In this document: positions 13,263 to 29,234 of the stretch, in pieces
Position numbering within the stretch: the stretch's first letter is position 1
Layout of the letters: the number at the start of each line of letters is the position of its first letter
Source of the DNA: Phycisphaerales bacterium
GTDB taxonomy: Bacteria > Planctomycetota > Phycisphaerae > Phycisphaerales > UBA1924
Assembly (NCBI GenBank): GCA_029260475.1
Contig: JAJDDE010000064.1
Coordinates: 1 to 39,283 of the forward strand
Length of the DNA stretch: 39,283 nt
Direction of reading: 5' to 3'
Notes under the pieces: generated by a model
What the model saw: only the letters and a program-made list of their open reading frames with translations
The model's database searches: none
Told to the model about the DNA's origin: nothing
Position numbers and translations under genes: made by a program

Positions 13263-13979
13263 ATGACACTCCGCCTCACCGCGCTCATCGCGGGCTCCGC
13301 TATCGCTGCGCCCGCCGCCCTCGCCAACCACGTCGATTTCATTCAAGACGACTCCAACCCGGGCAACGGGGTGACGAACGCCACCTTCTCGCTCAGCACC
13401 AACGGCCCGCTCGTGACGGACACGCAGGCGGGCGAGCCCGCCGACGTCCTGGGCGGGTTCCGCGGCGTCGCCATCACCAACACCGGCGGCTTCGGCGGCA
13501 CGTTCAGCGTTGCACGCAGCGCGGGCGACGATGTCATCACCGCGACGAACACCAACGTCGCCGCTGGCACGCTGGACCTCTCGTACCCGGGCATCTCCGA
13601 CAGCGACTTCGACACGAACTGGAACTTCATCGCGGTCAGCATCCCGACGCTCTCCAACAACACCGGCGACGGTGAGATCAACCTCTCCGTGACGATCCAG
13701 AGCTCGACGGGCACCGGCACCGCCTTCGCGATGGGCACCGGCATCGCGCCGGGTCGCATCGAAGAGCCCGGGACCTACTTCTTTGCTTTCAGCGATCCCG
13801 GCTTCGCGGGCGTTGACTTCTCCGATGTCGATGGTGTGAGCGTCCGCTTCGAGTCGGCGATCATCGGCACCGACTTCACGATCGCGTCGATCACCCGCGA
13901 GGCCGTCCCCGCGCCGGGTACCGCGTGCCTCCTCGGGCTGGGTGGCCTCGCGACGCTGCGTCGCCGTCGCTCCGCCTGA
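13263..13979 (+). CDS. PEP-CTERM-type exported protein
   Basis: 238 residues. An N-terminal signal peptide (about 1-20, ending AAPAALA) precedes a beta-rich domain full of T, N, G and D. The C-terminus has the PEP-CTERM plan: VPAPG sorting motif near 216, a short hydrophobic helix (TACLLGLGGLATL) and a terminal RRRR cluster. In bacteria with an exosortase this tail is cut and the protein is exported or anchored to the surface or exopolysaccharide. The exosortase is not in the window. The middle part has no recognised enzyme motif. The ATG was chosen because it begins the signal peptide; AAGGA lies about 9 bases upstream. It has its own downstream terminator and is probably monocistronic. Confidence 0.85.
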   Translation: MTLRLTALIAGSAIAAPAALANHVDFIQDDSNPGNGVTNATFSLSTNGPLVTDTQAGEPADVLGGFRGVAITNTGGFGGTFSVARSAGDDVITATNTNVAAGTLDLSYPGISDSDFDTNWNFIAVSIPTLSNNTGDGEINLSVTIQSSTGTGTAFAMGTGIAPGRIEEPGTYFFAFSDPGFAGVDFSDVDGVSVRFESAIIGTDFTIASITREAVPAPGTACLLGLGGLATLRRRRSA

Positions 13980-14032: not shown

Positions 14033-14049
14033 CATGCGCGGTGCCCCGA

Positions 14050-14055
14050 TACACT
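14050..14055 (+). promoter_or_regulatory. Candidate -10 element of metG (possibly leaderless transcript)
   Basis: TACACT ends 6 bases before the metG ATG, and no Shine-Dalgarno sequence precedes that ATG. A start site 7 bases after the -10 box would be the A of the start codon. Confidence 0.35.
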
Positions 14056-14061
14056 CGGGGC

Positions 14062-15663
14062 ATGAGCCAGAACGCCCCGTACTACATCACGACCCCCATC
14101 TACTACGTCAACGACCGCCCCCACGTCGGGCACTGCTACACGACGCTCGTCGCGGACGCCGCGGCCCGGTTGATGCGGTGCGCCGGGCGGGACGTCTTCT
14201 TCCTGACCGGCACCGACGAGCACGCGGAGAAGGTCGTGGAGAGCGCCGCCAAGAACGGCGTGACGCCCATCGAGTGGGCCGACCGCAACGCGGCGGAGTT
14301 TGAGCGGGCCTTCGCGCTGATGAACTTCAGCCACGACGACTTCATCCGCACCACGCAGGAGCGGCACACGACGGTGGTGCAGGCCCTGATCGCGAAGCTG
14401 CAGGCGTCTGGCGATGTGTACCTGGGCGACTACGTGGGCTGGTACGACCCCAGCCAGGAGGAGTACCTCACCGAGACGGTCGCCAAGGAGCACGAGTACA
14501 AGAGCCCCGTCACCGGGCGCGAGCTCGAGAAGCGCACGGAGCAGAACTACTTCTTCAAACTGAGCGCGTACGCCGACCGTCTGAAAGCGCACATCGACGC
14601 CAACCCCGGCTTCATCAAGCCCGAGGCACGCCGGAACGAGGTGCTCGGTCGGCTCGGGCAGGGACTGGTGGATGTGCCGATCTCGCGTGGCGTCAAGGAG
14701 GGCGACGTCGAGTGGGGCATCTTCATGCCGGGCGACGAGAGCCACCGCGTGTACGTCTGGATCGATGCGCTGATCAACTACTGGTCCGCGGTGCAGGCTC
14801 CCGATCGCATCAAGTACTGGCCCGCGCAGACGCACGCGATCGCCAAGGACATCCTGTGGTTCCACGCGGTGATCTGGCCCTGCATGCTCATGGCCCTGGG
14901 CGAGGAGCTGCCCGGGTGCGTCTACGCGCACTCCTTCTGGATCCGCGAGGGGCGGAAGATGTCCAAGAGCCTGGGCAACTTCATCGATCTGGCGACCATC
15001 AACGCCTACATCGAACGTTACGGCCTCGACGCCCTCCGCTGGTACCTGCTCACGCAGGGGCCGATGGGCACGACCGATTCGGACTTCGTGCACGCCAAGT
15101 TCATCGAGGTGTACAACGCCGACCTCGCCAACGGCATCGGTAACGCCGCATCGCGCGTCGCGAACATGATCGCCAAGTACTTCGATGGCGCGATGCCCGA
15201 GGTGACCGCCCAAGACGCGGCGGCGCAGGGGTTCGGTCGCGACTGGCCCGCGCTCACCAACCAGGCGGTCACCGACGCCGTCGAGAAGATGGGGGCCTTC
15301 GATGTCGGCGGTGCCCTCCGCTGCGGCCTCGAGCTCTCCAACGAGGTGGACCGCTACGTCCACGACACCCAACCCTTCCGCCTCGCGAAGGACCCGGACA
15401 ACCTGCCGCAGGTCGCGGCGATCCTCACCAACTGCGCCGAGGCCCTCGTCGTCGCGGCGAACCTCCTGCACCCCGCGATGCCGGGGACGATGACCAACCT
15501 GCTCTCCCGCTTCGGGCGTCCGTCGCCCGACACGCTGGGCGGCGCGGATGCGCTAAGCGCGTGGGGCGCGGTGCAGGCGGGGACGCCGATCGAGAAGGGT
15601 GAGGCACTGTTTCCGCGTGCGGATGGGGATGAGGAGCCGCCGGGTGGGGGTTGCGAACTATGA
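14062..15663 (+). CDS. metG: Methionyl-tRNA synthetase
   Basis: 533 residues. A class I aminoacyl-tRNA synthetase that charges tRNA-Met. The HIGH signature is HVGH (21-24), followed by FFLTGTDEHAEKV, the editing/connective region WYDPSQEEYLTE with no zinc knuckle, and KMSKS (299-303) in GRKMSKSLGNF. The helical anticodon-binding domain fills about 340-500. The end, GTPIEKGEALFPRADGDEE, matches the usual end of the MetRS core (GxxIxKxExLFPR). There is no C-terminal tRNA-binding EMAP/OB domain. The ATG at 14062 was chosen over an upstream in-frame GTG at 14041 because homology begins at YYITTPIYYVN; it has no ribosome-binding site. Its stop overlaps the next start (ATGA). The last 22 codons are copied inside the following gene. 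Confidence 0.97.
   Translation: MSQNAPYYITTPIYYVNDRPHVGHCYTTLVADAAARLMRCAGRDVFFLTGTDEHAEKVVESAAKNGVTPIEWADRNAAEFERAFALMNFSHDDFIRTTQERHTTVVQALIAKLQASGDVYLGDYVGWYDPSQEEYLTETVAKEHEYKSPVTGRELEKRTEQNYFFKLSAYADRLKAHIDANPGFIKPEARRNEVLGRLGQGLVDVPISRGVKEGDVEWGIFMPGDESHRVYVWIDALINYWSAVQAPDRIKYWPAQTHAIAKDILWFHAVIWPCMLMALGEELPGCVYAHSFWIREGRKMSKSLGNFIDLATINAYIERYGLDALRWYLLTQGPMGTTDSDFVHAKFIEVYNADLANGIGNAASRVANMIAKYFDGAMPEVTAQDAAAQGFGRDWPALTNQAVTDAVEKMGAFDVGGALRCGLELSNEVDRYVHDTQPFRLAKDPDNLPQVAAILTNCAEALVVAANLLHPAMPGTMTNLLSRFGRPSPDTLGGADALSAWGAVQAGTPIEKGEALFPRADGDEEPPGGGCEL
15575..15642 (+). repeat. 68-bp direct repeat, copy 1 (3' end of metG)
   Basis: Direct repeat of 16531-16598, 64 of 68 bases identical. 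It encodes the last conserved residues of MetRS and is the probable parent copy. Confidence 0.9.
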
Positions 15664-16607
15664 CTCGCTGGCTGATATGGCTATTGGCGTATTCATCTAT
15701 CAGCACGATGACATCGGTTGCATTCGCCCTGTGGACCTGGAACGAACACATCACCAAGCCAATTTTTGACGGCTGGATCGCGTTAATGCCACTCGACATG
15801 GATTGGCGTCAACTTCCGCCAGATGGACCGTTGGAATTCCGGTACTGGGACGGCAACTCTTGGAAGACTCGGGAATTCGGTGTGGTGATTGAATCCAAAG
15901 TAGATGCGATCTCGTTCGAGATTCGACGATCCAGCGTGTTCACAACGCCAGAGCGATATCAACAGCATCTGGATGTCCAGGAAAGCAAAAGCCGTTTCTA
16001 CGCCTCTGAACAGTCCATGACCATGCACGTCACTTGGATTCAGGTTCCTCAAAGTGTCATGGGCAGTGCGTTCACAGGCTTCCCTTTCCGCTCGTTCGGA
16101 AAATACGGGAGCGACCTCGGCCTGTTTCGTGGAGCGGACCCGCCCGATCGAAACTGGTCAACGCTAGCCGGAGGGACTCCGGTCGTGCGTCTCTCGGAGA
16201 TTGAGGAGCGCGGCCTGCTCTTGCCGGCGCGATGGTGGAACATCCCCGAGCCGCAAACGCAATTCGCGAAGCAGCAGGCGGGCTCAAATCTACCCGGCAC
16301 AAACACGCCGTATGTCCCCGATCCGAACCGACTGTGCGACGACGGCTCTCCTTCTCGTGTGCTATTGGGTGGCGTTCTCGCGAACTCGATCGTGTGGATG
16401 CTACCGCTGGTTGGGATGCACTTCGTGATTGGTACTGGGTGCCGCTGGAACCGACGCAGACGCGGCCTCTGCACCACGTGCAAGTACCAACTCGCGGGTC
16501 TCACCACCTGCCCCGAGTGCGGCACGATGAAGGCGGGGACGCCGATCGAGAAGGGGGAGGCGCTGTTTCCGAGGGCGGATGGGGATGAGGAGCCGCCGTC
16601 ACCATGA
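15660..16607 (+). CDS. Membrane protein with C-terminal zinc ribbon, fused to a copied MetRS tail (paralogue A)
   Basis: 315 residues. N-terminal membrane segment (about 4-24), a long outside region (about 30-240) with no recognised motif, a second membrane segment (about 240-258), then RWNRRRRGLC, C-x2-C-KYQL and CPECG (about 261-289), a treble-cysteine-pair zinc ribbon that should face the cytoplasm. Such ribbons end many otherwise unrelated planctomycete membrane proteins. The last 26 residues are not part of the family: 22 of them equal the C-terminus of MetRS. The gene overlaps metG by 4 bases (ATGA) and paralogue B by 4 bases. The central codons are visibly more AT-rich than in neighbouring genes. 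The function is unknown. Confidence 0.75.
   Translation: MTRWLIWLLAYSSISTMTSVAFALWTWNEHITKPIFDGWIALMPLDMDWRQLPPDGPLEFRYWDGNSWKTREFGVVIESKVDAISFEIRRSSVFTTPERYQQHLDVQESKSRFYASEQSMTMHVTWIQVPQSVMGSAFTGFPFRSFGKYGSDLGLFRGADPPDRNWSTLAGGTPVVRLSEIEERGLLLPARWWNIPEPQTQFAKQQAGSNLPGTNTPYVPDPNRLCDDGSPSRVLLGGVLANSIVWMLPLVGMHFVIGTGCRWNRRRRGLCTTCKYQLAGLTTCPECGTMKAGTPIEKGEALFPRADGDEEPPSP
16442..16526 (+). repeat. 85-bp zinc-ribbon cassette, copy 1 (in paralogue A)
   Basis: 79 of 85 bases equal 17383-17467. It encodes the basic RWNRRRRG stretch and the two cysteine pairs. It begins at the same codon number (about 261) in both genes. Confidence 0.9.
16531..16598 (+). repeat. 68-bp direct repeat, copy 2 (metG tail copied into paralogue A)
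   Basis: Direct repeat of 15575-15642. It is read in the same frame as in metG. The four base differences (GGT/GGG, GCA/GCG, CGT/AGG) are all silent. Confidence 0.9.
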
Positions 16608-17509
16608 GGCGGGCGCGACACATCGCGCTGTGCCTGATCGTTGGGTGCCTGCTGCAGTTCGGCGTCGCGTACGGGCTGTGGTTTGGGTATATCGAGCGGG
16701 GGTCGCCAACCCGTTGGACAGGAGACCCTCTTGATGGACCCGCCCCCAACGAGAGACGGGGGCAGCGCGAATTCACCACACTTAGCCCGGAGGGTTCGGA
16801 GCGCAGAGCGTTCGAGGTGTGGCGACTCGACCGGCCCACGCACTTCGGCGTGAGTGTGACGGGCGGTATTGCGTATGAGAACGCCGACAAGGTCGATCAG
16901 AGCCGAATTGAGTCCGAGGAATTCGGAAAGATGTTCGATAGCCTTACGCAGACCCAGATAATCACGATCCAGTGGAGTTGCCCGTCGCCCGCATCAAACG
17001 TGAAGTTCATGCGTCTTCAAGCCGGCTTCCCGTTCCCGACATTGATGCGACACGAGATCGAGCCGGACGAACTTATCGAGCACGAGCGTCGCGGCACGCT
17101 CTCGCTCGCGATCGCGTATATGGGGTATCGCCTCCATGACCCGGCATTCCAAAGGAGCATCCAATTGCCCGCTTGGATTTGGTACGACCGTGACCGCGCC
17201 TTCACCATGTTTGAATTGCCGGGCGTCAATGGATACAAAACGGTTGCCCCAACCTTGGGCTTGCCACTCTCTGCTTCTCCACGCTTCCCGCCGATGTGGA
17301 TCGGGATCACCGGTGCTCTTTCGAACACCCTGACCTACGCAGCATTGCTCTATGCAGGCCTCTTCGGCACCGGCGTAGCCATCCGCTGGAACCGACGCAG
17401 ACGCGGACTCTGCACCAAGTGCAAGTACCAACTCGCCCGCCTCGCCACCTGCCCCGAGTGCGGCACGCCCAAGCGTGCCTCACCTTCGACGGCTTCCTCG
17501 TCGTCCTGA
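16604..17509 (+). CDS. Membrane protein with C-terminal zinc ribbon (paralogue B)
   Basis: 301 residues with the same plan as paralogue A. Membrane segment about 6-25, outside domain about 30-225 containing an AGFPFPT segment that lines up with TGFPFRS of A, second membrane segment about 228-252, and a zinc ribbon GLCTKCKYQLARLATCPECG (about 268-287). It ends with a short Ser-rich tail, probably the original form of the family's C-terminus. Outside the membrane segments and the ribbon the two paralogues are barely alike. The ATG overlaps the stop of A by 4 bases. Base composition of the central part is again more AT-rich than the neighbours. The function is unknown; the zinc ribbon could serve protein-protein or nucleic-acid contacts. 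Confidence 0.75.
   Translation: MRRARHIALCLIVGCLLQFGVAYGLWFGYIERGSPTRWTGDPLDGPAPNERRGQREFTTLSPEGSERRAFEVWRLDRPTHFGVSVTGGIAYENADKVDQSRIESEEFGKMFDSLTQTQIITIQWSCPSPASNVKFMRLQAGFPFPTLMRHEIEPDELIEHERRGTLSLAIAYMGYRLHDPAFQRSIQLPAWIWYDRDRAFTMFELPGVNGYKTVAPTLGLPLSASPRFPPMWIGITGALSNTLTYAALLYAGLFGTGVAIRWNRRRRGLCTKCKYQLARLATCPECGTPKRASPSTASSSS
17383..17467 (+). repeat. 85-bp zinc-ribbon cassette, copy 2 (in paralogue B)
   Basis: Partner of 16442-16526, with six mismatches in 85 bases, three of which change an amino acid. Confidence 0.9.
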
Positions 17510-17668
17510 TGGGGGCCTGAAGCGGTGTGAGCGTCCGGGAATGGTGCTTTGCAGCGTCACAATCCGGCGTGCCCGCGTGAGAGGGGCAGGGGTGGATCGG
17601 CTTCCTTCACTGCGGATCAGCGGCTTCGCTCGGGAGACCGATCATCGGATTCGAGGAGGTTGTGTCCT

Positions 17669-18910
17669 GTGCTGATGTGCGCGGTGGGTGAACTCGAGGC
17701 GGGGTGGGCGGTCGGCGGCGCAGTGCTGCATCCCAAGCGCCCATCGACCCAGCTCCTGGCCCCGAACACCGCGCTCACGCGCGAGAACATCAGGACGCTC
17801 CAGCGGCTGGGCGTCGAGCACGTCTGGATCACCGGGGACGACCTCGAGGACTACGACCGCGGCGCCACCCGTCTGCTCACGCGCGAGCAGCACGCCCTGC
17901 AGGAGGCGCTGCTCAACGATTTCGCGGGTCGCGCCAAGACGACGATCAGCACCGCGAGCGTACAGAAGTACAAGCAGCGCGTGAATCAGCTCATCATGAG
18001 CGCGATCTCGAGCCGCCAGTACGCCTCGCTGGCGTCGCGGTTGCGCACGGGTGGCGACGGGCAGTTTGCGCACGCCGCGAACGTGGCGTACCTCTGCGTG
18101 GTCTGCGGGCTCCAGCTGGAGACGTACATCGTCCGCGAGCGCCCGCGCCTGACGCCGGGCAAGGCGCTGGACCACGCGTCACTCGGTCTCGCGGGGCTGC
18201 TGCACGACGTCGGCAAGACCAATTGCGACTTCGAGAGCCGCCAGCAGCACGAGGTCCACTTGCACGAGGATGATGACGAGGAGGCGTACCGCGACCACGT
18301 GCAGATCGGCTACGAGATGCTGGAGTACGCGGGCGCGCCCGCTTCTGTGCGCGTCGCGGTGCGGATGCACCACCAGCGTTGGGACGGCGCCGGCTGGCCC
18401 GATGCGGACGCGTGTGGCCTGCGCCACCGCGAGGCGGTCGTAGGGAGCGATATCCATATTTACAGCCGCATCGTGGGTGCCGCGAACGTGCTGGACAACC
18501 TGCTGCACCGCGCCGACGGGACGCCGTCGCTCCCGGTGAGCGCCCTGGCCCGGTTCGCCTCCACGGAGTTCGACGGCTGGTTCGACCCGATGGTGCGTGC
18601 GGCGCTGCTGCGCGCGGTGCAGCCCTACGCGGTCGGCTCGCGCGTGGTGCTCACCGACGGGACGGTCTGCGCCGTGGTGTTGCCCAACCCGGCGTGCCCG
18701 TGCCTCCCGAGCGTCAAGCCCCTCGACAATCAGCACGCCGGCGAGGTGATCAACCTCTCGAACGACGCTTCGATGCGCCGCATCGCACGGCACGAGGGGC
18801 AGGACGTCTCCTCCTTGTACTACGAGCCGACGCCCGCCTCGGTCGATGGCGACGACTCGGTGTGCATGGTCCCGCCGATGTACATCGATCCTTCGGACGC
18901 CGCGGCGTAG
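17669..18910 (+). CDS. HD-GYP domain protein (cyclic-di-GMP phosphodiesterase family)
   Basis: 413 residues. An N-terminal part of about 125 residues (DUF3391-like in position) precedes an HD-GYP domain: H135, LLHDVGK (H179-D180-K183), H210, MHHQ (H234-H235), then RWDGAGWP (238-244), the counterpart of the HHExxDGxGYP signature with W in place of Y. At the last metal-ligand position, where the family reads xADxxDAL, this protein has AANVLDNL, with N273 replacing Asp. HD-GYP proteins hydrolyse cyclic-di-GMP; the substitution may weaken or abolish metal binding. The C-terminal part (about 350-413) is the usual G-x-x-V-x-L-xDG beta segment. The GTG at 17669 was chosen because GAGGAGG lies 9 bases before it; an ATG two codons later is also possible. 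It precedes the DUF58 cluster by 64 bases. Confidence 0.85.
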   Translation: MLMCAVGELEAGWAVGGAVLHPKRPSTQLLAPNTALTRENIRTLQRLGVEHVWITGDDLEDYDRGATRLLTREQHALQEALLNDFAGRAKTTISTASVQKYKQRVNQLIMSAISSRQYASLASRLRTGGDGQFAHAANVAYLCVVCGLQLETYIVRERPRLTPGKALDHASLGLAGLLHDVGKTNCDFESRQQHEVHLHEDDDEEAYRDHVQIGYEMLEYAGAPASVRVAVRMHHQRWDGAGWPDADACGLRHREAVVGSDIHIYSRIVGAANVLDNLLHRADGTPSLPVSALARFASTEFDGWFDPMVRAALLRAVQPYAVGSRVVLTDGTVCAVVLPNPACPCLPSVKPLDNQHAGEVINLSNDASMRRIARHEGQDVSSLYYEPTPASVDGDDSVCMVPPMYIDPSDAAA

Positions 18911-24765: not shown

Positions 24766-27700
24766 ATGCCCGAAACCACGCACACACCCCGCCCAAAGAC
24801 ACCCTCAGCGAAGGCCCTCGTGGAGGCGCTCGCGCGCGTCCGCTCGAGGGCCCGCCTGCTGCTGCTGGTCCGCCGGATCGGGCTGCTGGTGGCGCTGGTG
24901 CTGATCGCGGCGCTTTTGGGCGGGTTGCTGGACGCGTGGCTGCGGTTCCCGTCGGCACTCCGCGTCGCGGCGTGGCTCGGCGTGATCGGGTTCGTGGTCT
25001 GGGCGGTCTGGAAATTCGTCCTGCCCGCGGCGCGGTTCTGCCCCTCGCTGACGGACGTGGCACTCCGCGTGGAGCACGCGCGCCCGGAGACCGAGGGCCT
25101 GCTCGCCTCCGCGATGGACCTCTCGGGCGTCGCCGGCTCGGCGGGCGAGGGTGTCGGCGCGGGGCCCACGCACGACGCGCTGGCGGCGCGCGTCGTCACC
25201 GATGCGCTGCGTGCGTTCAAGGCGACCGACGCCCTGGCGATCATCAACACGACCCCCGCCGCTCGCGCCGCCAGCGCGAGCGTGCTGGCGCTCCTGCTTG
25301 TTCTCGTACCCGCCCTGCTCGCACCGAGCCTGTGGACGATCGGTGCCCAACGCATCTTCACGCCCTGGACGGACGCGACGTGGCCCAAGCGGACTGGCAT
25401 CGCCGACGCGACGCGGCTGCACGACGAACGCGTTCACTCGCTCGAAGAGGCGCTGCCGGTTCGAGGCCTGCTGACGAAGTGGCGGCGCGATCCGGAAGCC
25501 GAGGACGTCGCGGTGCGCTACCGCTCGTTCGACTCCAATGGTCAGTCAGGGCGCACGCAGCGTGCGCTGCTCACGATGCAGGGCGATCAAGAGGGCGGAT
25601 ACCTCTTCGAACGGCTCATCGAGCCCTCGGGCAGCGCGATGGAATACCGGCTGGAGACCGAAGACGACGCGACCGAGTGGACGCGGGTCAGGCTCGTTGA
25701 GCCGCCGGCGGTCGCCTCGGCCTCGGTGCGGATCACGCCGCCGGTGTACGCGACGGGCGGCGCCGAGCGCACGGGCGAGGCGCTGGACCTCGGGCCCGGG
25801 TACGACGAGCGGGCCGCGGCCCCCGCGTCGCTCGCCGGCTCGCGCGTGGAGCTCGATATCTCCTTTAACCGCGCGGGCGTGCTGCTGGCGGCGGGCGATG
25901 ACGAGGAGGGCCAGGCGCCCTCGCTCGAGACGCTGCGCAGCGCCCTCGGATCGAGCGCACGGGTCACGTCCTTCCAGGCGTCTGACAACGCGTGGTCCGT
26001 CGAGATGATCCTGAACGACACCACGCGGTTCGTGCTCCCCCTCGTGGACGAGTACGGCATCGCCTCGGTGGACACGAGCGTGTACCGCTTCGACGCGGTG
26101 CCGGACCGCGCGGCGGCTTCGACGATCACGACGCCCGAGCGCGACATGACGGTGCTCCCGGGCGCGGTCGTGGACGTGGAGGCGGAGGGGCGTGACGACG
26201 TGGGGCTGAGCCGCGTGGCGCTGGAGCGTCAGACGTGGAAGCGGAATGTGGAGAGCGGGCCCGGCGGCGCGATGGAGTCCCAGGGCGGCTTCCAGACGGT
26301 CACGGAGGTCTCGCTGGAAGACGGCACGGTCGAGGAGAAAGCGACGGCCCGCGCGGTGCGCGCGTCGTTGGATCTCGCGGAGCTCGGGCTGGAGCCGGGC
26401 GACGAGGTGCTGCTGGCGGCGCTGGCGAGTGACCTGTTCGTGGACGCGAACGGCGAGGCCCGTGCACCGACGCGTTCGTCGGGTCGCGTGCTGAAGATCA
26501 TCGGGGAGGACGAGTTCGTCCGTGAGGTGCGCGAAGCGCTCGCGGGCGTGCGCGAGGGCGCGATCCGTCTCGAGCAGCAGCAGGCGGACCTGCGCGAGGC
26601 GACGGGCGAGCGCGGCGCCGAGCGCACCACGACCCGCGCCCAGGCGCAGGTAGCCCAGCGGCTCGAGCAGCGCCTCGAAGAGCTCGAGAATATCGCGGAG
26701 CGCGTGGACGAGAACCGCCTGGATAATCAGGCACTCTCGGAGCTTCTCGAGGAGGCGCAGAACGCGACCGAACGCGCGGCGCAGAGCGCGTCGAGCGCCG
26801 CGCAGAGCCTGTCCCAGGCGCGCGCCGCGTTGGACCCCCAGGAGACCGACGCCTCGCTCCCCGAGGAGGAGGCCCGGGCTGTCGCAGACGAGCAGCTCCG
26901 GACGGAGCAGGAACTCGCCGACCTCATCGAGATGCTCGATCGAGGCGAGGACAACTGGGTCGTCCGCAACCAGATCACCCAGCTCCTCGAGCAGCAGCGT
27001 GAGATCCAGCAGCAGACCGGCCAGCTCGGGCAGGAGACCGCGGGCCTCACGCCCGAGGAACTCAGCGAGGCGCAGCGGCGCGAGCTCGAGGACATCGTCC
27101 GCGAGCAGGAGGAGCTGGCGGAGGACACCGAGCAGTTGCTCGAAGACCTGCGCGCACGCGAGCAGGCGATGCGCGAGAGCGACCCCGCGGGCGCCGAGGC
27201 GCTGCGACAGGCGGCGCAGCGGGCCGAGCAGCGGCAGACGACGCAGAGCATGCAGGAGGCGGCCGAGCAGGCGCAGCAGAACCAGACCTCCGAGGCGCAG
27301 CAGAACCAGGAGGAGGCGGCTGAGGCCCTCGAGGAGATGCTGGAGGACCTGGACGAGAGCGAGCGCAACCGCAAGGAACAGTTGCGACGGGCGCTCTTCT
27401 CGCTCGAGCAGTCGATCCAGGCGCTCATCGACAGCCAGACCGACCAGATCGCGTTGCTCGAGGCGGGCGGCACCCCGGCACGCGAGCTCGCGCTGAACAT
27501 GGTGCAGCTCGCCGACAACACCAGCGCCGTGAGCGCCGAAGCGCGCGCCACGGGGCCCGAGCTCTCGGGCGTCGCGAACCTGCTCGACCGCGCGCTGGAC
27601 GCACAGGCCGGCGCGATCGGCAAGCTCCGGGGTGAGCCCGCATCGATCGACGGAGCCGCGGCCCTCGAAGGGCGTTCGCTCGAACTGCTCGCCCAGGCGC

Positions 27701-28482
27701 TCGAAGCGACCGAGGCGCTCGAAGAGCAGCTCGAGCAGGAGGAGATGGAGGAGCGCAAGCGCGAGCTCAAGCGGGCGTACCGCGAGGCGCTGGAGCTCCA
27801 GGTCACGCTGCGCGAGCGGACCCGCCCCTTCGCGGAGATGGAGGAGCTCAGCCGTCGCGACCGCGTGCGTCTCCGCCAGCTCGGCCCGTCGCAGGTCGAG
27901 GTCCGCGAGAAGCTCGAACAGATCCGCGACGGCGCCGAGGAGATGGCCGAGGCGCGCGTGTACGACTACGCGCACCGGCGCATGGCGCGTCTGAGCGAAC
28001 AGGCCGAAGAGGCGATGTCCGTCGCGTCGGCGACCGGCGCGGTGCGCCGGCAGGACGCGATCGTGGACACGCTGGCGGACCTCCTCGAATCGCTCGAGGA
28101 CCCCGAGCAGGAAGACGACCCCTTCCAGAACGACGCGGGCCCGCAGGAAGGCGGCGGCGGTGGAGGCGGCGGACAGGGCCAGCCCGAGCAATTGTTCGAG
28201 GACCTGGGGCAGCTGCGGCTGCTGCGCGAGCTCCAGATCATGATCGCCGACGACACCGCGATGGTGGACGGGGGTGGCGAGTCGCTCTTGGGCGACCTGA
28301 GCGCACTGGCGGCGGAGCAGAACGAACTCGCGGGTATCGCGGCGGACCTCATCGAGAAGATCACCGAGAGCCCCGTGCCGCTGGACTTCCTTCCTGAGAA
28401 CGGCGGGCGTTCGCCGTTGGACGACGCCGAACCGGCCGATGGCCTCGATGGCGACGGCACCGAGCAAGGAACCGAATCATGA
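24766..28482 (+). CDS. DUF4175-like giant membrane coiled-coil protein
   Basis: 1238 residues. Two N-terminal membrane segments (about 36-56 and 66-86) and a third (about 168-188) are followed by a beta-rich region (about 200-575) with repeated Ig-like strands (VRLVEPPAVASASVRI, VLPGAVVDVEAEGRDDVGLS). From about 580 to 1125 the chain is a nearly continuous charged coiled coil rich in E, Q, R and A, with Q/E-rich blocks (about 820-870). A Gly-rich linker (about 1128-1140) leads to a final helical segment. The plan matches DUF4175/TIGR02302-type proteins, which are found with DUF58/VWA genes. The long coil could span the periplasm or scaffold the neighbouring VWA proteins; this is inferred. The stop overlaps the next start by 4 bases (ATGA). 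Confidence 0.8.
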   Translation: MPETTHTPRPKTPSAKALVEALARVRSRARLLLLVRRIGLLVALVLIAALLGGLLDAWLRFPSALRVAAWLGVIGFVVWAVWKFVLPAARFCPSLTDVALRVEHARPETEGLLASAMDLSGVAGSAGEGVGAGPTHDALAARVVTDALRAFKATDALAIINTTPAARAASASVLALLLVLVPALLAPSLWTIGAQRIFTPWTDATWPKRTGIADATRLHDERVHSLEEALPVRGLLTKWRRDPEAEDVAVRYRSFDSNGQSGRTQRALLTMQGDQEGGYLFERLIEPSGSAMEYRLETEDDATEWTRVRLVEPPAVASASVRITPPVYATGGAERTGEALDLGPGYDERAAAPASLAGSRVELDISFNRAGVLLAAGDDEEGQAPSLETLRSALGSSARVTSFQASDNAWSVEMILNDTTRFVLPLVDEYGIASVDTSVYRFDAVPDRAAASTITTPERDMTVLPGAVVDVEAEGRDDVGLSRVALERQTWKRNVESGPGGAMESQGGFQTVTEVSLEDGTVEEKATARAVRASLDLAELGLEPGDEVLLAALASDLFVDANGEARAPTRSSGRVLKIIGEDEFVREVREALAGVREGAIRLEQQQADLREATGERGAERTTTRAQAQVAQRLEQRLEELENIAERVDENRLDNQALSELLEEAQNATERAAQSASSAAQSLSQARAALDPQETDASLPEEEARAVADEQLRTEQELADLIEMLDRGEDNWVVRNQITQLLEQQREIQQQTGQLGQETAGLTPEELSEAQRRELEDIVREQEELAEDTEQLLEDLRAREQAMRESDPAGAEALRQAAQRAEQRQTTQSMQEAAEQAQQNQTSEAQQNQEEAAEALEEMLEDLDESERNRKEQLRRALFSLEQSIQALIDSQTDQIALLEAGGTPARELALNMVQLADNTSAVSAEARATGPELSGVANLLDRALDAQAGAIGKLRGEPASIDGAAALEGRSLELLAQALEATEALEEQLEQEEMEERKRELKRAYREALELQVTLRERTRPFAEMEELSRRDRVRLRQLGPSQVEVREKLEQIRDGAEEMAEARVYDYAHRRMARLSEQAEEAMSVASATGAVRRQDAIVDTLADLLESLEDPEQEDDPFQNDAGPQEGGGGGGGGQGQPEQLFEDLGQLRLLRELQIMIADDTAMVDGGGESLLGDLSALAAEQNELAGIAADLIEKITESPVPLDFLPENGGRSPLDDAEPADGLDGDGTEQGTES

Positions 28483-29234
28483 AGACTCCGACGACCGCGA
28501 CATGGTTGCTGGCGATGGTGGCGGGGTGCGCGATCGGCTTCGGCGCGTACGCCCAAGAGAGCGAACCCGCGCCCGCGGAGGAGCCCGCGACCGAGAACGC
28601 GGAACCCGTCGAGGAGCAGGGCGGGCTCGGCAGCCTCGACGACCTCCTGGGCCTGGAAGGCACCGCGGACGATGACGCGACGGCGTCGGACGACGCCGAG
28701 GCGCTGCCCGACGGTGCGGACATCGAGCTCGAGAAGGCGCTCACGCAGCAGGAGGCACGCGATGCCCTCGTGCAGGCGGCCCAGCAGATGAAAGAGGCGT
28801 CCTTCCGCATCGGTGAGGTGAGGGACACGGGCGTGGTCACGCAGCGTCTGCAGTCCGAGATCATCAGCAAGCTCGACGTGCTCATCCAGTTCGCCGAGCA
28901 GCAGCAACAGCAACAGCAGCAGCAGCAACAACAGCAGAGTCAGCAACAACAGCAGCAACAGCAGCAGAACCAGCAGCAGCAACAGGGCCAGCGTCAGCAG
29001 CAACAGCAGCCGCAGCAGCCCGGGAACAACACCGACCGCGAGGACGGCATCGCCGACATCCCCTTCGAGGAGGGCGCTCGGGACGTGATCGATTCGTCGA
29101 GCGCGGGCTGGGGCGACCTGCCCTCGCGTGTGCGCGAGCGCCTCGTCGAGGGCTCGAGCGATTATTTCAGCACGCTCTACGAGGCGTTGACCGAGGCGTA
29201 CTACCGCCGGCTGGCTGAGGAGGCGTCCAAGTGA
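28479..29234 (+). CDS. Exported polyglutamine-tract protein
   Basis: 251 residues. Signal peptide about 1-25 (WLLAMVAGCAIGFGAYAQE), then an acidic Pro/Glu/Asp-rich linker (about 26-85), a helix (about 88-139) with EARDALVQAAQQMKEA, a Gln tract at 141-180 (35 Gln in 40 residues) and a folded-looking C-terminal part containing GWGDLPSRVRERLVEG and ALTEAYYRRLAEE. The helix and the C-terminal segment resemble the last part of the upstream coiled-coil protein in style, so the two may bind. Periplasmic location is inferred from the signal peptide. The ATG overlaps the previous stop and the gene ends in a GTGA overlap with the next, so all three are coupled. No enzyme motif; function unknown. Confidence 0.8.
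   Translation: MKTPTTATWLLAMVAGCAIGFGAYAQESEPAPAEEPATENAEPVEEQGGLGSLDDLLGLEGTADDDATASDDAEALPDGADIELEKALTQQEARDALVQAAQQMKEASFRIGEVRDTGVVTQRLQSEIISKLDVLIQFAEQQQQQQQQQQQQQSQQQQQQQQQNQQQQQGQRQQQQQPQQPGNNTDREDGIADIPFEEGARDVIDSSSAGWGDLPSRVRERLVEGSSDYFSTLYEALTEAYYRRLAEEASK
28899..29018 (+). repeat. CAG/CAA repeat tract (polyglutamine)
   Basis: 40 codons: 26 CAG, 9 CAA and five interruptions (Ser, Asn, Gly, Arg, Pro). CAG and CAA are mixed irregularly, and the longest pure Gln run is 13. Confidence 0.95.

Follow-up and report, generated by a model that had tools for sequence, protein, structure and literature searches.

Near-identical zinc-ribbon DNA beside unlike exposed domains in two tandem membrane protein genes behind metG of a Phycisphaerales bacterium

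What process leaves two neighbouring genes with almost the same 3' end and with hardly any likeness in the rest of their length? The question is raised by ORF1 and ORF2, two tandem genes directly behind metG (methionyl-tRNA synthetase) in a stretch of 39,283 nucleotides from a Phycisphaerales bacterium (assembly GCA_029260475.1, contig JAJDDE010000064.1, positions 1-39,283 of the forward strand), which is called the window below. Both genes encode members of a protein family composed of a first transmembrane helix (TM1), an exposed domain with a G[WF]P motif, a second transmembrane helix (TM2) with a conserved P and N, and a C-terminal C4 zinc ribbon. Taken as a whole, the observations are best explained, and in our judgement fairly probably, by a two-helix family, found here in one order only, having a fast-changing exposed domain and a constant ribbon, and diversifying by recombination.

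In the initial annotation, the ribbon cassettes of both genes were described as near-identical and as starting at about the same codon, next to outside parts that can hardly be aligned, and all three statements hold. The cassettes agree at 79 of 85 bp, with the six mismatches located, and the repeat begins at codon 261 in ORF1 and codon 260 in ORF2, while the Smith-Waterman score of the pre-ribbon parts is at chance level (39, compared to 33.8 ± 5.1 for shuffled sequences, 76 of 500 shuffles being as high). At ribbon sites occupied by the same residue, Met and Trp excluded, the codons are identical in 22 of 24 cases, against 11.2 ± 2.3 expected from the ribbon codon usage of the same genome, and none of 5000 draws reaches 22, so the likeness of the two ribbons lies at the DNA level.

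A second direct repeat, unnoticed in that annotation, is formed by the last 85 bp of metG, which recur with 89% identity (E 6.1e-25) directly behind the ORF1 ribbon, where they form the tail of ORF1 (AGTPIEKGEALFPRADGDEEPP) and also provide the sequence immediately before the ORF2 start. This 3'-end repeat is native to metG and the ORF1 tail is its copy, because the MetG C-termini of relatives are alike. The metG stop and the ORF1 start share a 4-bp ATGA overlap, as do the ORF1 stop and the ORF2 start, and the 13-bp overlap between the ribbon and metG-tail repeats is probably a duplication junction. Each body, meaning the variable segment before the ribbon, is thus bracketed by near-identical DNA (ribbon 93%, metG tail 89%), whereas the bodies themselves differ, indels included. 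Since the brackets are 7% and 11% divergent and the bodies have no measurable likeness, flanks and bodies have different histories, and the ORF1/ORF2 region is, judging from its sequence, a mosaic.

It had also been supposed that the ribbon may be homogenised by recombination, and this is borne out in relatives, including one genome consisting of a single contig (G133), though patchily. Neighbours have ribbons that stay alike in DNA sequence, in some genomes as far as the following start codon. Twenty fetched array regions and the window yield 36 adjacent pairs, whose ribbon DNA identity ranges from 0.59 to 0.97; five pairs, the window's included, reach at least 0.92, with bodies at 0.28-0.51 amino acid identity. 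Among 68 members, the codon identity at same-residue ribbon sites is 0.71 for tandem members, 0.69 for others of the same genome and 0.53 when different genomes are compared, and values of 0.45 and 0.41 are obtained in the bodies. When codons were shuffled in 12 genomes, the ribbons of G010, G022, G023, G026 and G027 were never equalled by any draw, and those of G000 and G031 were equalled in 6 and 3 of 200 draws, respectively. In G027, five ribbon pairs, three of them between contigs, are identical at 28/28 or 29/29 synonymous codons with bodies only 27-33% identical, and the identity sets in sharply at the TM2/ribbon border, ending in several pairs at the ATG of the next gene. The shared block includes TM2 in G010, G022 and G026, and in G027 and G133 the identity extends beyond the stop codon. 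With one G027 ribbon as query (E ≤ 1e-3), there are at least 23 matches in G027, at least 16 in G031 and at least 3 in G035, and none in G039 or in the window's own genome among the matches listed; at least eight of those in G027, query included, have 95% identity or more over 90 bp or more. As a side observation, equal-scoring ribbon matches of G031 fall in short open frames, in pairs (C34:87234-87329, C39:61812-61907, C69:33-128 and C69:35449-35544), those of C69 and C39 lying near contig ends, as if repeats had broken the assembly.

Besides the ribbon itself, whole ribbon-bounded units are copied between arrays and between species. A unit of 911 bp is 95.0% identical between contigs C28 and C23 of G027, and where it meets the ribbon, at either end, the identity drops from about 97% to 30-40%. 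Another unit, of 735 bp, is shared by G027 and G031 with 94.2% identity, compared to 79.3% for the metG region, and has its right edge at the ribbon; these two genomes, with 35 and 31 members, have eight reciprocal best bodies (at least 120 aa, distinct, at least 35% identity over at least 60%). The single contig of G133 carries three tandem members, one of which matches its neighbour at 89/93 in the ribbon and 310/530 in the body, with a stretch of identical DNA that begins inside the ribbon, runs over the stop and reaches the next ATG; the same member matches the copy of another species (G022) at 467/552 in the body and 73/87 in the ribbon. Identical same-residue ribbon codons are 29/30 with the neighbour and 18/26 with G022 (Fisher p 0.0085, for a case chosen after the genus table had been seen). 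Because G133 is one contig, and provided that this contig is correct, a metagenome-assembly artefact is excluded here. Within the genus g23, for pairs with body amino acid identity of at least 0.35, tandem pairs average 0.71 (amino acids) and 0.68 (codons) in the ribbons and 0.39 (amino acids) in the bodies, and orthologous pairs 0.71 and 0.63 in the ribbons and 0.55 in the bodies.

Several results weigh against recombination as a general account of the family. Only 5 of the 36 adjacent pairs, the window's among them, reach the ribbon identity of 0.92, and 5 of the 12 shuffled genomes (G005, G006, G011, G015 and G020) have no clear ribbon codon excess or none at all. The bodies likewise show a codon excess in 8 of the 12 (at most 1 of 200 shuffles), so common descent explains part of the likeness. 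The ribbon codon means of g23 differ little between tandem and orthologous pairs, and of 30 members that have a tandem neighbour within 2.5 kb and a nearer body in another species (body amino acid identity at least 0.40), 14 have the ribbon nearer to the neighbour, 14 do not and 2 are ties; 19 of these members are from one genus and 11 from another, many of them not being independent. The unit shared by G027 and G031 has a gradual left edge, with the preceding ribbon motif recognised in one of the two loci only, and a third long block (L201/L211, 88% over 820 bp) has no ribbon boundaries. Considering six blocks of at least 250 bp and 86% identity, taken from sequences other than the window and after L130 and L188 were dropped for overlapping L211 and L118, only 7 of 21 non-edge block ends lie strictly inside a ribbon interval (2.0 expected), and three of the six blocks have none there. 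Two of the ends scored as misses are the upper end of the 911-bp block, 6 bp outside a ribbon (C28:2577-2672), and the end of the 735-bp block at C28:1073, which is the end of a 53-bp ribbon match unseen by the motif. Ribbon conversion is thus common, but not universal.

The history of the locus itself was sought behind metG in 20 of 24 family relatives, in regions of mostly about 9 kb, four of them shortened by contig ends. No single-copy ancestor appeared, as these 20 regions have no match to HD, DUF58 or the next genes behind metG, and ORF1 and ORF2 find no match there beyond the MetG tail. The metG-HD neighbourhood is kept in none of the 20 relatives examined, all outside the window's genus, so the steps that took place in the window cannot be dated, which also counts against a firm reconstruction. 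Some ribbon motif is present behind metG in 4 of the 20, and the three inspected belong to other proteins. Two relatives, at L064:434-1201 (G005) and L068, reverse strand 577-1203 (G014), have another protein with a C-terminal ribbon directly 3' of metG, alike by eye.

Since shared tails mark the edges of copied pieces in relatives, the ORF1/ORF2 pair looks like a small site of a recombination-diversified family. The blocks of ribbon and start codon would serve as arms for homologous recombination, by conversion or unequal crossing-over, and exposed domains could thereby be duplicated, deleted or swapped, the tail staying constant. In the window, a unit composed of the metG 3' end, an ORF body and a ribbon may have been tandemly duplicated beside metG, with the junction where the ends of the ribbon and of metG resemble each other; later, one body would have been replaced, or both flanks converted. 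More tentatively, as a possibility to which we give less than even weight, this could be an undescribed diversification system for exposed membrane proteins of Phycisphaerales. In it, the variable outside domains would act as exchangeable cassettes set in arrays between constant ribbon/start blocks; they would be reshuffled inside a genome, pass between species and feed one common cytoplasmic pathway via the ribbon. A limited search of the literature found no account of this family or of such behaviour in planctomycetes.

A simpler history would start from an ordinary tandem duplication of recent date, after which diversifying selection would have made the exposed domain evolve very fast, without body exchange or conversion. 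The ATGA overlaps and the metG-tail copy do fit the duplication of a unit of metG tail and ORF, but the bracket divergences of 7% and 11% stand beside bodies at chance similarity, with indels, and point mutation would require a very large gap in rates with sharp limits at the ribbon; in G133, moreover, a body shared with another species is joined to a ribbon that matches its neighbour, so we consider this history unlikely. That no recombination is involved at all, the ribbon DNA being alike through strong protein constraint and codon bias, is extremely improbable. The ribbon is indeed the most conserved part of the protein, and its GC content at third codon positions (GC3) is above that of the body in 8 of 11 members of the window's genome; however, same-residue codons agree at 0.53 between genomes against 0.69-0.71 within them, the window pair has 22/24 identical codons against 11.2 expected from the ribbon codon usage of its genome, and the metG-tail copy in ORF1 is under no evident constraint of this kind. 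The identity at synonymous sites, together with that beyond the stop codon in G027 and G133, largely refutes this explanation.

The conserved block might instead be the site of a dedicated recombinase, as in an integron-like or inversion system, rather than a general arm for homologous recombination. The short block, the arrays of direct repeats and the unit ends that fall at the block in some cases are compatible with it. Nevertheless, a single simple test found no inverted repeat of at least 14 bp in positions 15400-17800, genera differ in the sequence of the block, and the shared stretch is not of constant length, including TM2 in three genomes as seen above, which makes a dedicated recombinase quite improbable. 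The same test gave no attC-like palindrome behind the genes, as an integron cassette would have. We keep homologous recombination within a diversifying family as the preferred reading.

Regarding the family itself, 23 sequences were compared, of which 21 come from named contigs; none of them departs from G141, P143, P230 or the four Cys, and N241 is nearly invariant. A profile of TM2 and ribbon (A1), built from nine sequences of the window's genome, scores ORF1 at 1.9e-29 and ORF2 at 8.9e-28, as expected by construction, because both are rows of it. At E ≤ 1e-3, it matches in at least 36 of 41 genomes (the window's own, its family and its order), with 0-94 among the matches listed in each; at E ≤ 1e-8, it matches in at least 4 of 149 genomes across the phylum, the window's own included, and the matches listed all belong to the window's family. 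The family was found here only in the window's order, and 22 loci come from Phycisphaerales, Phycisphaeraceae, Phycisphaerae or unclassified Planctomycetota metagenome-assembled genomes. Its members often lie in tandem, and a genome may carry up to dozens of them. Neither ORF1 nor ORF2 passes the cut-off of any Pfam or NCBIfam model; for Pfam DZR and DZR_2 they reach 11.1-14.5 bits, the gathering cut-offs being 27-27.3, and the 23 members scanned give weak matches, mostly to zinc-ribbon models (best E 4.5e-4; DZR at best 0.00076). Among the domains named in these Pfam/NCBIfam scans there is none of a toxin or immunity protein.

The initial annotation proposed a cassette family, for which many copies of the ribbon nucleotide sequence in the genome, with varied N-terminal parts, would be support. 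The family exists, with multi-copy ribbon DNA in other genera, but in the window's own genome the search was negative beyond the pair, ORF1 and ORF2 alone having the ribbon in common as DNA; their whole stretch has, besides the metG tail, DNA matches of 71% over 87 bp and 80% over 49 bp. Different folds of the outside domains in a genome free of other ribbon copies had been named as the argument against the proposal; other copies are present as protein, with ribbon matches at 22 places (E ≤ 10) and nine further ORFs aligned as likely relatives, L014 and L018 weakly. In this genome the mean GC3 is 0.71 for the family bodies and 0.92 for metG; as the lower body GC3 does not recur in G022, we make no claim that the bodies are foreign.

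Among 218 distinct family ORFs, read from stop to stop, 190 end at most 30 aa past the core and 24 have at least 80 aa behind it. By eye, an added helix and ankyrin-like repeats follow the ribbon in 18 of these 24, as confirmed by Pfam for L011 (Ank_2, 6e-25). This ankyrin-tailed subfamily occurs in several genera (L011:823-2766, L124, L133, L204, L209, L221, L222, L227, L232, L244, L246, L249, L255, L263 and L265). In L129 (minus strand, an open frame of 477 aa) and similarly in L210, two family units are apparently fused, the ribbon being followed by a second TM1 and, in the L129 frame, also by a second GFP motif.

The structure models of ORF1 and ORF2 place the helices (2-32 and 235/236-267) and the hairpin around the GFP motif with confidence, and the ribbon is modelled confidently in ORF2 and less so in ORF1. 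Apart from the G[WF]P hairpin, the exposed parts mostly have a predicted local confidence (pLDDT) below 50, with block means of 54-68 for ORF1 residues 51-70. Foldseek gave no match of the ORF2 model in the PDB at E ≤ 0.001, and the best hit of the PDB sequence search was an anaerobic ribonucleotide reductase (E 0.017). The ribbon is predicted to be cytoplasmic, because positive charges precede it. The exposed domain may bind something outside, and the ribbon might couple all variants to one shared cytoplasmic partner. The likeness to diversifying surface or sensor families drawn in the initial annotation is, for the outside parts, hypothetical. Positions of the features are collected in Table 1.

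Table 1. Features of the metG-ORF1-ORF2 locus (window positions)
Feature	Position	Strand	Basis or remark
metG (methionyl-tRNA synthetase)	14041..15663	+	Pfam tRNA-synt_1g E 6.9e-91; ORF list
metG 3' end, second direct repeat, copy 1, 85 bp	15558..15642	+	native to metG
ORF1, 315 aa: TM1, exposed domain with GFP motif, TM2, C4 zinc ribbon, copy of MetG C-terminus	15660..16607	+	
ORF1 body (variable segment)	15660..16441	+	GC3 0.65, against 0.94 for the metG body
Ribbon cassette, copy 1 (ORF1)	16442..16526	+	direct-repeat comparison
metG 3' end, copy 2	16514..16598	+	overlaps the ribbon repeat by 13 bp; likeness imperfect
ORF2, 301 aa: TM1, exposed domain with GFP motif, TM2, C4 zinc ribbon	16604..17509	+	
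ORF2 body (variable segment)	16604..17382	+	GC3 0.73
Ribbon cassette, copy 2 (ORF2)	17383..17467	+	direct-repeat comparison

Elsewhere in the window, a CAG/AGC triplet array (28897-29019) encodes a polyglutamine run in the ORF at 28479-29234, and a large ORF of 1238 aa (24766-28482) is rich in Glu, Gln and Arg by eye, with an AT skew of 0.34 (A over T) in 27001-29000. A secreted-looking protein (13266-13979) has no Pfam match at E ≤ 0.001, and its tail is presumably PEP-CTERM-like.

Comparable arrangements have been described in Helicobacter pylori, where the outer-membrane paralogues babA/babB and homA/homB have homologous ends and a variable middle (PMC3960876, PMC4552749), and where bab 3' segments are alike within a strain and the 5' and middle segments alike between strains, which is read as concerted evolution (PMC3960876). 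The same pattern, with the ribbon closer within the genome and the body closer between genomes, is that of the 14 of 30 members mentioned above, G133 being the clearest. By analogy, the planctomycete family appears to work like the bab and hom genes, combining a constant end, here the ribbon, with a variable part, yet it does not belong to that family. In the pathogen, babA/babB occupy a small number of outer-membrane loci and undergo phase variation, whereas the present genes encode two-helix membrane proteins whose constant end is a zinc ribbon, lie in arrays, number up to dozens of copies in a genome and share a unit between species. Regarding phase variation by 5' repeats, Tandem Repeats Finder reported no array inside 15660-17509. 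Polymorphic toxin systems likewise gain diversity by recombination of one protein end against the rest (PMC3482391). Unlike them, the family has no named toxin or immunity domain in the scans made, and its constant end is C-terminal and presumably cytoplasmic. The CxxC...CPxC metal-binding knuckles are common to the family and to Pfam DZR, DZR_2 and Zn_Ribbon_1, but ORF1 and ORF2 fall below the cut-offs and have one C4 ribbon, not two, behind a transmembrane helix.

The best-known examples of diversity that arises when constant ends are converted around a variable middle come from pathogens facing immunity. Its occurrence in planctomycetes, with up to dozens of copies in a genome and a unit found across species, suggests a changing outside pressure, such as phage, predators, competitors or substrates. 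The genes of this family, to which ORF1 and ORF2 point and which has no Pfam or NCBIfam model above cut-off for these two, offer a handle for finding such a pressure.

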